From Myxococcales bacterium (GTDB lineage Bacteria; Myxococcota; B64-G9): a DNA stretch of 53,124 nucleotides. A program made the translations under genes and the position numbers. This document shows positions 11,616-17,776 of the stretch, piece by piece (positions within the stretch are counted from its first letter, which is position 1; each line of letters starts with the position of its first letter). The DNA lies in the NCBI GenBank assembly GCA_012798435.1, contig JAAZNF010000058.1, positions 1 through 53,124 on the forward strand, read 5' to 3'. The notes under the pieces are model-generated. The model was not told the DNA's origin. It was given only the letters and a program-made list of their open reading frames with translations, and did not search any database.

Positions 11616-14285
11616 ATGCGCTACCTGTGCCTGGGACTATCGATCCTGACCGTCGGCCTGGCTGGTTGCGCCGATTCGATCGGCGGGCCCAACCGTCCGC
11701 CGCACGCCGAGGCCGGGCCGGACATAGGCATTCTCATGGGCCAGACGGCCACGCTGGACGGGACCGGCAGCGTCGATCCCGATGGGGACACGCTCGCGTT
11801 CTCCTGGCGCCTGCTGGCAGCCCCGCCGAGCGCGTTCAGCGGCGGCGCTCTGCAGCAGGGACCGGAGGCAGAGCTGCCGGCGGGCCTGGCGCGGCTTACG
11901 CCGACACGGGAAGGGCTGTGGCTGGTCGGGTTGCAAGTGAGCGACGGCCGGGCCGAGTCGGACCTGGACACGGTCGCGGTCGCGGTGGCCGGCCAGAGTT
12001 GCGAAAGCGACGAGGAGTGCGACAACCACCTGGCCTGCGACGGCCTCGAGCGCTGCGTGGACCTGCGCTGCCGCTCGGGGACGCCGGTGGACTGCTCCTC
12101 CCTCGACGGTGTTTGCGTGGTGGGCGCGTGCCGCGAGCCCGCCGGAAGCTGCGGCGTGGCGAACCGCGAGGACGGCACGGGTTGCGACGACGGGTTGTTC
12201 TGCACAGTCCGCGACGCCTGCACGAGCGGTGTGTGCACCGGGGAGGCGCGGGAATGCGCGAGCTTGAACCCCTGTCTGGAGGGCTTCTGCGACGAGGACA
12301 AGAAGTCGTGCGACACTCGCGCCCGGCAAGAAGGAGCCGCCTGCGAGGATGGGAAGTATTGCACCGTGAACGAAACCTGCCAGCAGGGCCAGTGCCAGGG
12401 CGGCACTCCGCGCGATTGCAGCGCCGCCGGGGGGGCCTGCGTGGACGGCTCCTGCGACGAGAGCCAACAGAGGTGCGTGGGCGATCCGCTTCCCGACGGC
12501 GCGCTATGCAACGACGAGGACCGCTGCACGGAAAACGACGCCTGCGGCGGCGGTGTTTGCTCGGGCACGCCCATCGACTGCTCGGCGCTCGCTGACGACT
12601 GCCACACGGCATTCTGCGACGGCGCGACCGGCGAGTGCCGGGTCGATCCATTGACCGACGGTACCCCCTGCCAGACGGGCCTCTTCTGCGTCCAGGGCAA
12701 GACCTGCCAGAGCGGCGTGTGCCAGGGCGGCACCCTGAGGGATTGCTCTTCTCTGGCCGACTACTGCAACGCCGGTGTCTGCGACGAGGGCTTGCGCGAC
12801 TGCCGCAAGCAACCCGATCGCGAAGGCGACGCCTGCCAGGACGGGCTGTTCTGCACCATGGCCGAGGTCTGTGACGATGGGTTGTGCACCCACGGTATAC
12901 CGCGCACCTGCCCGCCGTCGGACGTCCCCTGTCGGGAGACTTTTTGTAGCGAGTCGCTCGGCGGCTGCGACGTGCGGATCGCGCCCGACGGGGCGGTGTG
13001 CGATGACCCTTCGCGTTGCGCGACCGGCGGCGTCTGCCAGGCCGGCGTTTGCGTCGGGGGCACGGACACCTGTCCGCTGGGGTGCAACACCTCGGTCCAG
13101 CCCGCCCGCTGCAACCACCTGGACGTCTCCAACCTGGGCCAGGTCCCGCTCTGCCAGGTGGGTCTGCCCGTCTTTCAGGGAGCGCCCGGTGTGACGGTGA
13201 CCTTCGACACCGGGACGGGCCAGATCGACGGCCAAGCCGTGCCGAACTTCTTGGCCGTGCCCCAGGCCGACCCCGATGCTCCGGAGTTGGGTGTGTTCGC
13301 CTTCAACTCGTTTTCGCTCCCGGCGACCGCCATCCTCCGGGTGCAAGGTTCGCGCGCGCTGGTGCTCCTCTCCTGCGGTCCAGTGGACATCCAGGGGGTG
13401 ATCCGGGCCACGGCGTCGGGGCGGACACCGGGGCCGGGCGGCTTCCTCGGCGCGGCGGCGGCGTATGAGGCGATCAATGCCGGCCAGGGCTACGAAGCGG
13501 GAGCCGGTGGGGCGGGCCGGCGCGAGGAAAGCTATCCCTACCGCCAGAGCGGCGGTGGCGGCGGCGGGTTCGGCGCGGCCGGAGGCAAGGGTGGCGACGG
13601 CGTCAACGGCGGCGATCGTCTCGCCGGTGGAAGCGCCGGACAGCCCAACGGGACCCCCGAGCTCATCCCTTTGCTGGGCGGCAGCGGCGGTGGTGGCGGC
13701 GGCAGTTTCGCCACCTCAGCGCCGGGTGGCGGCGGGGGCGGCGCAGTCCAGGTGAGCAGCGAAAGCACGATCACCATCGGCCCGCAAGGCGGGATCTGGG
13801 TGGGCGGTGGTGGCGGCGGTCTGAGCTCGGCCAACAACTACGGCGCTGGCGGCGGCGGAGGCGCGGGCGGGGGCATCTTGCTCGAGGCGGCGCTGGTCGA
13901 AGTCCAGGGCACGTTGGCGGCCAACGGCGGCGGGGGCGGTGGCGGCCGGACCGAGTATACGCCCTGGGGACATTACTGTTCCTCGAACACGCCGCAACCC
14001 GGACAGGCCGGCCTGTTCTCGGATGAGCGCGCACAGGGCGGCGCGGATTGCTCGGGAACGGGGACGGCACCGGACGCCGGCGAGGGCGGCGATGGCGGTG
14101 CGAGCGTGTTCTTCGCGGGAGATGCCGGTCAGGACGAGGGCGTGGGGGGTGGGGGCGCCGGCGGGGTGGGCCGCATCCGGCTGAACAGCAGGAACGGAAC
14201 CCAGGTCAACTTGACCGGGATTTCGAGCCCCGCCTGCGGCGCACAGAACAGTCCCTGTACCACGGGTGCTGTCTCCATCTGGTAG
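11616..14285 (+). CDS. Large cysteine-rich and glycine-rich surface lipoprotein
   Basis: 889 residues. ATG 11616 follows GGAGG. A lipobox (LAGC) anchors it. Next comes a PKD/Ig-like block (NRPPHAEAGPDI ... DGTGSVDPDGDTLAFSW, about 25-110). Six to seven cysteine-rich repeats of about 45 residues follow (about 125-500), of the type DGxxCxDGxFC...CxxGxCxG, probably disulfide-knotted. After a beta-rich domain, the C-terminal 280 residues are extremely Gly-rich (GGGGGGFGAAGGKGG and similar). This mosaic is typical of myxobacterial and related surface or adhesin-like proteins. No enzyme motif is seen. It faces the other cysteine-rich lipoprotein across the knot-protein gene. Confidence 0.85.
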   Translation: MRYLCLGLSILTVGLAGCADSIGGPNRPPHAEAGPDIGILMGQTATLDGTGSVDPDGDTLAFSWRLLAAPPSAFSGGALQQGPEAELPAGLARLTPTREGLWLVGLQVSDGRAESDLDTVAVAVAGQSCESDEECDNHLACDGLERCVDLRCRSGTPVDCSSLDGVCVVGACREPAGSCGVANREDGTGCDDGLFCTVRDACTSGVCTGEARECASLNPCLEGFCDEDKKSCDTRARQEGAACEDGKYCTVNETCQQGQCQGGTPRDCSAAGGACVDGSCDESQQRCVGDPLPDGALCNDEDRCTENDACGGGVCSGTPIDCSALADDCHTAFCDGATGECRVDPLTDGTPCQTGLFCVQGKTCQSGVCQGGTLRDCSSLADYCNAGVCDEGLRDCRKQPDREGDACQDGLFCTMAEVCDDGLCTHGIPRTCPPSDVPCRETFCSESLGGCDVRIAPDGAVCDDPSRCATGGVCQAGVCVGGTDTCPLGCNTSVQPARCNHLDVSNLGQVPLCQVGLPVFQGAPGVTVTFDTGTGQIDGQAVPNFLAVPQADPDAPELGVFAFNSFSLPATAILRVQGSRALVLLSCGPVDIQGVIRATASGRTPGPGGFLGAAAAYEAINAGQGYEAGAGGAGRREESYPYRQSGGGGGGFGAAGGKGGDGVNGGDRLAGGSAGQPNGTPELIPLLGGSGGGGGGSFATSAPGGGGGGAVQVSSESTITIGPQGGIWVGGGGGGLSSANNYGAGGGGGAGGGILLEAALVEVQGTLAANGGGGGGGRTEYTPWGHYCSSNTPQPGQAGLFSDERAQGGADCSGTGTAPDAGEGGDGGASVFFAGDAGQDEGVGGGGAGGVGRIRLNSRNGTQVNLTGISSPACGAQNSPCTTGAVSIW

Positions 14286-14368
14286 TTTTCTGGTAGTTAT
14301 CGGAGAATTCGGGCGTCAGTGGGCGACAGGGGAATCAGTGGGGAATCACCGTAATCACCGAATCACCG

Positions 14369-14526
14369 GGGCCTGTCCCCAAGTTTTTCCCTTGTGATTC
14401 AATCGGCTGCAGACGCAGAGACCACCCCTCGAAAAAAACCATTATTTGTCATAAAGTTACGCTTGTGCGCCACCCGCTGTCCGCATAACGGCTTGATTTG
14501 TAATGATAATAATTGGGGACAGGCCC
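14369..14526. repeat. 158-bp element with perfect 14-bp terminal inverted repeats
   Basis: GGGCCTGTCCCCAA (14369-14382) and TTGGGGACAGGCCC (14513-14526) are exact reverse complements bracketing 130 bp of AT-rich DNA. Just before it, AATCACCG occurs three times (14344, 14353, 14361). The core GGGGCCTGTCCCC recurs at 40809 and 40855, with a variant at 23719. It looks like a REP-type or MITE-like non-autonomous element. No transposase is inside. Confidence 0.7.
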
Positions 14527-14575
14527 TGTTGCGGCTCCGGCTGGGGACTGACTATTATTGCCTTTGTGAAAAAAA

Positions 14576-14896
14576 TCAGGGCACGCCGGGGAACGAGTCG
14601 ACGTACTGGATCTTGATGTCGGGGAAGGAATCCACGAGCTGGATCTTGAAGTCGGGGAAGGAGTCCACGATTTGCCACTTGCCGCACGAGTCGGGGAAGG
14701 ATGTCACCTTCTGGACCTTGAGGTCGGGGAAGGAGCTCACCACCTGCACCTTGATGTCCGGGAACGAGGTCACGATCTGCACCTTGCCCTGGAGCTTCTT
14801 GCCCTTGAAGGTGCAGTCCTTGCCCACGTTGCCGGCAAACGCCGTCGTGGAAAGCGCGAACAACAGAAGAACCGCCAACGCCACGATCCGCTTCAT
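14576..14896 (-). CDS. Small secreted repeat protein, probable 7(1) septoil-knot (Septknot) family
   Basis: 106 residues. A signal peptide ends at AFA, so the mature protein is about 86 residues. It starts CTFKGKKLQGK, then consists of six near-identical 11-residue strands built on V(Q/K)xVxSFPDxK (VQIVTSFPDIK, VQVVSSFPDLK, VQKVTSFPD, then IVDSFPDFK, IQLVDSFPDIK, IQYVDSFPGVP). A SCGKW insert falls after the third. This pattern matches, from memory, the Septknot family, whose members are predicted or shown to form a 7(1) protein knot; their function is unknown. Two cysteines (in DCTFKG and DSCGKW) could pair. AAGGAGGG precedes the ATG. It lies 30 nt after the large cysteine-rich lipoprotein gene, so co-transcription is likely. 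Confidence 0.85.
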   Translation of the reverse strand: MKRIVALAVLLLFALSTTAFAGNVGKDCTFKGKKLQGKVQIVTSFPDIKVQVVSSFPDLKVQKVTSFPDSCGKWQIVDSFPDFKIQLVDSFPDIKIQYVDSFPGVP

Positions 14897-14926
14897 GAAA
14901 CCCTCCTTAGGTTGTGGTTGCCTCGC

Positions 14927-17776
14927 CTAGAGGCAACCGAAAAGCATATTGCAGCTTTGCCCTTGCGAGCAGCACTGGTTCGGGAACAGGAGCGAGGCGC
15001 AGTAGAAAGACGGCGCGTTGCACACGCACACCTGCTGGCTGTTACAGGTGCTGCCCGGTCCGTAGCTCGAGGTGCAACTGGGGCAGCTCCCGCCGCACGA
15101 ATCCGCGCCGCAGGTGAAGGGGTCGCTCGAAGTCCCACTGCCGCATTGCTTATCGCAACAACTCCCCTGGTAGCAGCGCTGGTCGCTCGAGCAGCACACC
15201 GTCCCGCAGGTGTCGTAGGCGCACACGCAGTAGCCGGAGGTGTTGCAGGTTTCGTTCTCGGGGCAGGTGCCGCAGGAGCCGCCGCAGCCGTCGGAGCCGC
15301 ACTCGGTGTAGCACCAGGGGTAGCAGCACTGGCCATCGTAGCAGGTGTAGTTGCTATCGCAGGAGCCGCAAGAGCCGCCGCAGCCGTCCGAGCCGCACTC
15401 CCTGCCGGTGCAGTTCGGGACGCACACACACTGGCCATTCTGGCACACGTCGCCCGGGTAGCAGGTGCCGCAGGTGTGGCCGCAGCCGTCCGGCCCGCAT
15501 TCCTTGCCGGTGCAGGCGGGCGTGCAGCAAGAGCCGGTGGTGGCGTTGCACACCTGGCCCGAACCACAGCATACCCCGTTGCACTCGGCGTAGTCGCACA
15601 CGCACACGCCGTTCTCGCAGTGCTCGAGCGACCCGCACAGGTTAGGGCACGTTCCGCCGCAGCCGTCGGTGCCACACTCCTTGCCGGCGCAGGAAGGGGT
15701 GCAGCGGCACACCCCGTTCTCGCAGCGGTCGTTGGGGTACTCGCAGGTGCAACTTCCGCCGCAGCCGTTGCTGCCGCAGGTGCGCGCCGGGCAGCTCGGC
15801 ATGCAGCAGACGTCGTTCGGCCCGCATAGCTGGCCTTCGGCGCAGCAGGCTCCGCCGCACTCCTCGTAGGTGCACTCGCAGCGGTTGCTTATGAGGATGT
15901 CGCAGGTCGAGAAGGCCGGGCAGGTTTCCAGCGACCACTCCAGGCACGGGTCGGTGTCGGTGTTGCGGCAGACGTAGACCCGGGTGTTGTCGAGGAAGGG
16001 GCACTTGGTCTGACCCGTCTGGCAGTCGCTGGTGCAGGAGCCGGCGTACACGCACTGGCCGCTCTGGCACACGTAGTAGTTCTGGCAGTTGAGCTGGAGC
16101 CCCTCGTCGCCGAAGCCGTCGCAGTCCGAGTCGAGCCCGTCGCACACCTCGGTGCCGAAAGAAGGCCCATAGTTGGTGGCGTCGCAGGGTGCGAAAAGGC
16201 CGTTCACGCACTGGTCGGCGCGGTGGCGGCTGCCGGCGCACACCCCATCCTGCCGCTCACAGAGCGTCAGGGACAGGTCGGAGTCCTGGGCGTCGGTGAG
16301 CCCGTCGCAGTCGTCATCGAGGCCGTTGCACGACTCGGGGCCGGTGGGCACGCACACCGTGCGGCACTGGCCCCCCTGGCAGGTCGAGCCCACGGGGCAG
16401 TCGCGGTCGGACTCGCAGCCGGGGACGCACACGAAGTCGCGGCACAGGTTGCCGAGCGGGCACTGATCCTTGGTGAGGCACTGGACGCACACGCCGTTCT
16501 GGGTATCGCACACCGGCGCGGGGGGGGTGCAGTCGCTACTTTCCCGGCAGGAGAAGACGCACACCCCGTCGCGGCACACCTGGTTGTTCTGGCAGTGGCT
16601 GTTCTGGAGGCATGCCACGCAGCGGCCGGTGGCGCCGGCGTCTGTGTCGCAGTGCAGGGGCTGGGGGCAGTCGCGGTCGGATTGGCAACCCTCGATACAG
16701 TGTCGCTCCGAGCAGATGTAGCCGAGCGGGCAGTGCTCGTTCGCCAGACAATCGACGCAGGAGAACGTGTCCAGGTCGCAGTGGCCGCTGATGCAAGCCG
16801 AGTCCTGGCGGCAGCCCGAGACGCAGGCGTTCTTCTCGCAGATGGTCCCGGATGGGCAGTGGCCGTCTTCCAGGCAGGGGACGCACTGGCCGCTCGAGGT
16901 GTCGCAGTGCAGCGGCAGACAGTGCGCCTCCTCGGTGCAGAAGAACTCGCAGCGCAGCTCCCGACAGCGGAACCCCGCCGGGCAGTCGTCGTCCTGTTGG
17001 CACTCGGCGCACACCCGGGCGTCTCCCACCCCGCTGGGGATGCACTCCCAGCCGCTGGGGCAGTCCCGGCTGCTGCGGCAACCCGTGATGCAGGTGCCGC
17101 CCTCGCAGATCATGCCGGGGTCGCACTGGTCGTCGGTGGTGCAGGTGGGGCCGGCCTCGCAACTCCCGTCGCGGCACACCTCGTTCGGTCCGCAGCCGGC
17201 GTTGTCCAGGCACTCCACGCAGGTGTGGTCCGACTCGCGGCACAGCGGCAGGGTGCGGGTGCAGTCGCTGCCGGAGAGGCACTGGACGCACACGCCGCTC
17301 GCGGTGTCGCAGCGGCCGGTGGGCGACGAGCAATCGCCATCGCTCTGACAGGCGGTCAGGCATTTCTTGTCGACGCAGCGGCCGGCCGGGCAGTCGCCGT
17401 CCACAAGGCACGGAACGCAGCTATGGCTCGCCGGATCGCACACCGGCGTGGGGGCGGCGCAGTCGTCGTTGCTCTGGCAGCCGGTCTTGGGAACGCAGCA
17501 CCCCTGGAGGCACTCGTGCTGCTGTGGACAGTCGCTGTCCGTGACGCACGCATTCACCTGCGAGCACTTGCCGTCCAGGCAGACATCGAGGCAGCTCGTG
17601 CCGCAGTCCGTGGCGGCGAGGCACTCGACGCACAGGCCCTTTGTGGTGTCGCAGCGCGGCAGCGACTCGGGGCACTGGGCGTCGCTCTCGCAGCGGGTGG
17701 TCGAACTGGTCGAGCAGCCGGCCAGCCAGGCGAACGCCGCCACGGCCGCCATCCCGAACGCGTTTGCCATCCTCAT
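14927..17776 (-). CDS. Large cysteine-rich lipoprotein with MopE-type motifs
   Basis: 949 residues. ATG 17776 follows GGAGGA; a signal peptide ends in a lipobox (WLAGC). The N-terminal half (about 25-470) is a string of short cysteine modules of the form CxSDxDCPxPxxCD...CVxCL. Two calcium/metal-type motifs, CNGLDDDCDG (near 482) and CDGLDSDCDG (near 542), resemble those of MopE-type proteins. The C-terminal part (about 655-905) has about six modules of the form C.GKECGxDGCGGxCGxC. It is predicted to be surface-anchored and held by many disulfides. Function is unknown. The divergent FHA-sigma54 activator may control it, and the septoil-knot gene follows in the same operon. Confidence 0.85.
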   Translation of the reverse strand: MRMANAFGMAAVAAFAWLAGCSTSSTTRCESDAQCPESLPRCDTTKGLCVECLAATDCGTSCLDVCLDGKCSQVNACVTDSDCPQQHECLQGCCVPKTGCQSNDDCAAPTPVCDPASHSCVPCLVDGDCPAGRCVDKKCLTACQSDGDCSSPTGRCDTASGVCVQCLSGSDCTRTLPLCRESDHTCVECLDNAGCGPNEVCRDGSCEAGPTCTTDDQCDPGMICEGGTCITGCRSSRDCPSGWECIPSGVGDARVCAECQQDDDCPAGFRCRELRCEFFCTEEAHCLPLHCDTSSGQCVPCLEDGHCPSGTICEKNACVSGCRQDSACISGHCDLDTFSCVDCLANEHCPLGYICSERHCIEGCQSDRDCPQPLHCDTDAGATGRCVACLQNSHCQNNQVCRDGVCVFSCRESSDCTPPAPVCDTQNGVCVQCLTKDQCPLGNLCRDFVCVPGCESDRDCPVGSTCQGGQCRTVCVPTGPESCNGLDDDCDGLTDAQDSDLSLTLCERQDGVCAGSRHRADQCVNGLFAPCDATNYGPSFGTEVCDGLDSDCDGFGDEGLQLNCQNYYVCQSGQCVYAGSCTSDCQTGQTKCPFLDNTRVYVCRNTDTDPCLEWSLETCPAFSTCDILISNRCECTYEECGGACCAEGQLCGPNDVCCMPSCPARTCGSNGCGGSCTCEYPNDRCENGVCRCTPSCAGKECGTDGCGGTCPNLCGSLEHCENGVCVCDYAECNGVCCGSGQVCNATTGSCCTPACTGKECGPDGCGHTCGTCYPGDVCQNGQCVCVPNCTGRECGSDGCGGSCGSCDSNYTCYDGQCCYPWCYTECGSDGCGGSCGTCPENETCNTSGYCVCAYDTCGTVCCSSDQRCYQGSCCDKQCGSGTSSDPFTCGADSCGGSCPSCTSSYGPGSTCNSQQVCVCNAPSFYCASLLFPNQCCSQGQSCNMLFGCL

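Follow-up and report, generated by a model that had tools for sequence, protein, structure and literature searches.

What does a small, exported repeat protein of a Myxococcales bacterium have in common with the most complex natural protein knots, and does its gene neighbourhood say anything about what such proteins do? We know of no function for knots of the type formed by the Ureaplasma protein Q9PR55. The question arises from a short open reading frame within the window, the whole stretch of 53,124 nucleotides that was analysed, which a sequence-only reading had described as a secreted member of a Septknot family. Two related proteins serve as points of reference. A 7_1 knot was predicted for Q9PR55 together with a 5_1 knot for its homologue P73136, which is 48% identical to it (PMC9278004), and the 7_1 knot of Q9PR55 was confirmed by X-ray crystallography (PMC13352647, PMC11223836).

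The gene and its product

The reading frame occupies positions 14576-14896 of the minus strand, begins with ATG and encodes 106 amino acids, consisting of the leader MKRIVALAVLLLFALSTTAFA followed by GNVGKDCTFKGKKLQGKVQIVTSFPDIKVQVVSSFPDLKVQKVTSFPDSCGKWQIVDSFPDFKIQLVDSFPDIKIQYVDSFPGVP. It is present as one copy in the source genome. The following features can be recognized:

14576..14896, stop codon included, minus strand: gene of the exported knotted-family protein (106 aa), with matches to Q9PR55 in the PDB and to phrog_6462
14834..14896, minus strand: predicted Sec signal peptide, residues 1-21 (MKRIVALAVLLLFALSTTAFA), AxA cleavage before G22, without a lipobox, by inspection
14579..14833, minus strand: mature 85-residue domain with six strand repeats, three in each half, and a CGKW turn between the halves, as modelled by AlphaFold2 and matched by Foldseek
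14813..14815, minus strand: Cys28, predicted disulfide partner of Cys71
14684..14686, minus strand: Cys71, in the CGKW turn, predicted disulfide partner of Cys28
14902..14908, minus strand: Shine-Dalgarno sequence AAGGAGG, 5 nt ahead of the ATG

The mature domain is built from an 11-residue unit, SFPD-I/L/F-K-V/I-Q-x-V-x, repeated at a spacing of 11 residues that is broken at the CGKW turn. The sequence-only reading had claimed six nearly identical SFPD strands for it; the repeats are real, and the count is slightly too high, there being five SFPD motifs and one terminal SFPG. The SCGKW insert that had also been pointed out lies between repeats 3 and 4. Export, likewise proposed from the letters of the sequence, is the expected fate of the protein, for which a signal peptide with an AxA site is plain by inspection. 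The repeat register is common to 57 homologues from many phyla and differences among the closest relatives are mostly synonymous, which argues that the repeats are not a product of chance. In the comparison with the copy of genome G006, 42 of 82 codons carry synonymous-only differences and 8 carry amino-acid-changing ones, thus indicating purifying selection on the protein there; comparisons with the other relatives, from which locus L109 was left out, are less one-sided. Rfam returned nothing within positions 14200-15200. A 178-residue antisense frame (14394-14930, plus strand) matches frames that lie opposite other knot genes, an apparent homology that is an artefact mirroring the conserved knot coding sequence.

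Relationship to known knotted proteins

The family assignment is carried by both sequence and predicted fold. A single-sequence phmmer search of the PDB gave Q9PR55/UU089.1 as its sole significant match (E 9.7e-14), and a profile of 54 sequences found the same protein (E 1.2e-16). The AlphaFold2 model (mean pLDDT 92.6, pTM 0.78) contains six strands (16-20, 27-31, 38-42, 52-55, 62-66 and 73-77). When it was compared with the PDB by Foldseek, four matches were obtained at E<=0.001, all of them Q9PR55 entries, the best being 8iwa (E 4.9e-6, probability 1.00). The alignment to 8iwa is moderate, with TM-scores of 0.58/0.63, an rmsd of 3.3 A and about 44% identity over 68 columns; these TM-scores are uncalibrated, since the AlphaFold2 control on a Q9PR55-like homologue (L172) reached a pLDDT of 35 and was unusable. 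A fold search of a viral structure library gave no match.

The traits of the Q9PR55 type are thus present in the protein: sequence similarity over the repeats, SFPD-like turns, two halves with a distinct turn between them, and the fold of 8iwa. Strand repeats with SF(P)D turns arranged in two halves are common to the window protein and to Q9PR55 (PDB 8iwa, 8iwb, 8iwc, 8jrm, 8w68). In comparison with its Ureaplasma relative, the window protein has an added AxA signal peptide, the paired Cys28 and Cys71, and an extra C-terminal SFPGVP, and it has the CGKW turn where that of Ureaplasma is longer. P73136 of Synechocystis, a protein of 112 aa described as homologous to Q9PR55, can be likened to the window protein by description only. 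Taken together, the sequence and Foldseek matches place the protein in the Q9PR55-type family, and it is very probably both a true relative of this record-holding knotted protein and exported.

The name under which the family had first been proposed fared less well. Membership stood as kinship with Q9PR55 and failed as a Pfam assignment: Pfam-A gave nothing at E<=1 for the knot protein save two sub-threshold chance matches, with no consistent match among 57 homologues, NCBIfam held no matching model, and a family named Septknot appeared in no database output. PF19647, which we had taken to be its accession, is named DUF6150 in the database and finds nothing in the source genome.

The moderate fold match, at an rmsd of 3.3 A, leaves room for another winding number, and the knot type is predicted to be 7_1 or 5_1, the two being equally possible. 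A domain of trivial topology, that is an unknotted beta-solenoid, with the knot specific to Q9PR55, would agree with a TM-score of only about 0.6 and with the finding that AlphaFold may misjudge topology (PMC10672856). We consider it quite improbable since the protein shares six-strand order, register and 44% identity with one whose 7_1 knot has been crystallised, and since a 5_1 knot is predicted for another homologue (PMC9278004).

Distribution of the family and the paired cysteines

A scan of one genome per species located 191 loci, of which 80 were kept and a few lie in proviruses. They are distributed among Myxococcota, Pseudomonadota, Spirochaetota, Bacteroidota, Ignavibacteriota, Acidobacteriota, Bacillota and Synergistota, along with a bin labelled Anaerolineae. 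Within the window's phylum the gene is found in 28 of 195 genomes, and in seven of the nine of its own family. Phyla are intermingled in the protein tree, in which the position of the window protein is not resolved. Hydrophobic leaders are encountered in most homologues; some members from Bacteroidota are without an evident one, yet keep both cysteines. A leaderless homologue from the window's phylum (L172:7225-7476, minus strand) is closer to Q9PR55 than to the exported group.

Cys28 and Cys71 are kept or lost together, which makes a disulfide between them likely. Both are present in 91 and neither in 22 of 114 distinct sequences (related, not independent), and among representatives below 80% identity the corresponding counts are 48 and 6. 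The sole nominal exception, L091, has its cysteine in the leader, and L103 and L081 have a lone cysteine nearby. Those that have lost the pair are anaerobic selenomonads with their allies and, separately, a group of KTRVDV type, a loss that fits a disulfide. From sequence comparison, therefore, Cys28 and Cys71 are probably joined. Glycine, valine, proline, aspartate and tryptophan occupy the invariant positions among homologues and phenylalanine is also conserved, with no conserved catalytic set among these residues. In these respects the window copy is an ordinary member of its family.

The lipoprotein neighbour and the carD locus

The gene context in the window had been regarded as rare and as a possible hint at function, owing to a neighbouring 949-residue cysteine-rich lipoprotein. 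This is a real open reading frame, and two features are relevant here:

14927..17776, minus strand: 949-aa cysteine-rich lipoprotein, an incidental neighbour, with lipobox LAGC and matches to Myxo_Cys_RPT and, in part, to TraA
14916..14938, minus strand: perfect 9-bp hairpin over the lipoprotein stop codon, with no T-run and a fold z-score of -2.7

The lipoprotein gene, with about 18% cysteine in its product, is on the same strand as the knot gene and 30 nt upstream of it, and co-transcription of the two is possible. The hairpin stands just ahead of the Shine-Dalgarno sequence of the knot gene, and was not reported by the terminator scan. Farther along, a convergent Cys/Gly-rich lipoprotein (11619-14285, plus strand) weakly resembles part of a model for a myxosortase-dependent M36 metallopeptidase.

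That the knot protein makes up a functional unit with the cysteine-rich lipoprotein, both encoded in one operon, is a reading to which the shared strand, the short gap and the good Shine-Dalgarno sequence would lend themselves, although a hairpin separates the two genes. It becomes highly improbable when the relatives are surveyed for the same neighbourhood. Orthologues of the lipoprotein in genomes G001, G002 and G006 (51-54% identity over about 750-900 residues) have no knot gene beside them; these genomes carry both genes on different contigs, and their knot genes are next to carD. In addition, the family of the lipoprotein is much expanded, with 37 matching stretches in the source genome and 84 in G001. 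The adjacency is private to the source genome, not being conserved in relatives that hold both genes, and the lipoprotein, a chance neighbour, is therefore no clue to function.

All six same-family relatives with a knot gene (G001, G002, G004, G006, G007 and G008; loci L104, L105, L106, L107, L108 and L109) have it directly behind, and co-directional with, a CarD-family gene, at a distance of about 30-190 bases. The source genome has the orthologous carD on another contig (C42; L173:6721-7209) with no knot gene beside it, and in G005 carD is present and the knot gene absent. It would appear that the position behind carD is ancestral and that the knot gene moved away from it in the source lineage, the direction of this change being unproved.

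Phage-borne relatives

Members of the family are also carried by phages. In PHROGs v4 the protein has a near whole-length match (E 3e-37) to phrog_6462, a group of unknown function whose members are phage-borne, in contrast to the window copy, which is without phage context. Family members occur on 13 viral contigs. On a plasmid of Leptospira weilii (NZ_CP092209.1), a leader-bearing knot-family gene (L176:5944-6258) is situated within the baseplate operon of a prophage, where it and the baseplate J gene overlap by 4 nt; the match for this Leptospira member of phrog_6462 is 1e-48. In other proviruses the knot-family gene is oriented opposite to the tail genes.

These occurrences could be accounted for by an envelope protein of the lysogenic-conversion or superinfection-exclusion type that was spread by phages and later domesticated. 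Such an origin is, to our judgement, unlikely: a search of 50,697 phage records gave no match, almost all of the members located are chromosomal, phage genes were not noted near the window copy, and the stable carD and miaB loci resemble ordinary vertically kept genes. None of the baseplate, tail or miaB contexts is shared with the window locus.

A protease-rich locus in a sister family

The best functional lead is offered by the locus of a sister family (f8) in the same phylum, not by the lipoprotein neighbour. The knot proteins of this family are 70-79% identical to the window protein in the mature domain and have the leader and both cysteines in the same way, whereas their genes lie in a conserved protease-rich neighbourhood that the window locus does not have. 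In 15 genomes of the sister family miaB precedes the knot gene, and two arrangements are found:

L157:4156-12033, with equivalents L156, L158, L160, L161, L162, L165 and L168 (genomes G177, G134, G176, G178, G172, G180, G173 and G175): miaB, knot gene, HtrA-like trypsin, caspase-like C14 protein and mostly then a CsgG-like protein, on one strand
L163, L164, L159, L166 and L167 (genomes G105, G103, G102, G101 and G104): miaB, knot gene and then directly a CsgG-like protein

In the first arrangement the gap between the knot gene and the protease gene is 3-10 nt. The HtrA-like trypsin begins with a leader like that of a lipoprotein, and its TNHHV, DLAVL and GDSGGP motifs (His-Asp-Ser) are intact. 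ABC transporters and GGDEF proteins, which came up as neighbours when 99 loci were clustered, were set aside, as they proved to be unrelated representatives of very large superfamilies lying at varying distances.

This order of genes raises the prospect that the knot protein partners or regulates a protease system of the periplasm, in that it guards, inhibits or is a ligand of the HtrA-like protease, and that this applies to exported members in general. The conserved one-strand run in eight genomes and its narrow knot-to-protease gap, along with the five further genomes in which the knot gene is followed by the CsgG-like gene, speak for such a role. It is nonetheless doubtful, as the run is absent from the window's own lineage and from the other phyla sampled, the C-terminal part of the protease differs strongly between genomes, and gene order alone does not show an interaction. 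More speculative, and somewhat less probable again, is the proposal that exported knot proteins are dedicated partners in periplasmic proteolysis, in which knot and disulfide would together make an indigestible ligand, inhibitor or guard of the HtrA-like protease that acts alongside the caspase-like and CsgG-like proteins.

Proposed role and significance

As a whole, these observations are best explained, with somewhat more than even confidence, by an exported knotted beta-repeat protein of the Q9PR55/P73136 family that serves as a rigid partner-binding module; the mechanism assigned to it is tentative. The chain would be exported by the Sec pathway, as its leader suggests on inspection. By winding, its two three-repeat halves may form a knot of the two-strand torus type, 7_1 or 5_1, and the Cys28-Cys71 disulfide, lost in some lineages, would fasten the N-terminal arm to the turn that joins one half to the other. 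The product would most likely be a small, rigid, protease-resistant module of the envelope or of the secreted fraction that binds a partner; a non-enzymatic role is suggested by conserved residues that look structural and lack a catalytic set. A periplasmic protease system as this partner is a speculation drawn from gene order in the sister family; it is the most attractive specific version of the partner-binding module and also an improbable one on present estimates.

The exported form constitutes a large family for which Pfam and NCBIfam hold no matching model, and in two lineages its gene has fixed neighbours, namely carD in one, and miaB with the protease-caspase-CsgG run in the other. A large family, a probable disulfide and fixed neighbours make function testable in culturable relatives, and a role in proteolysis, if true, would give the most complex knots of natural proteins their first function.
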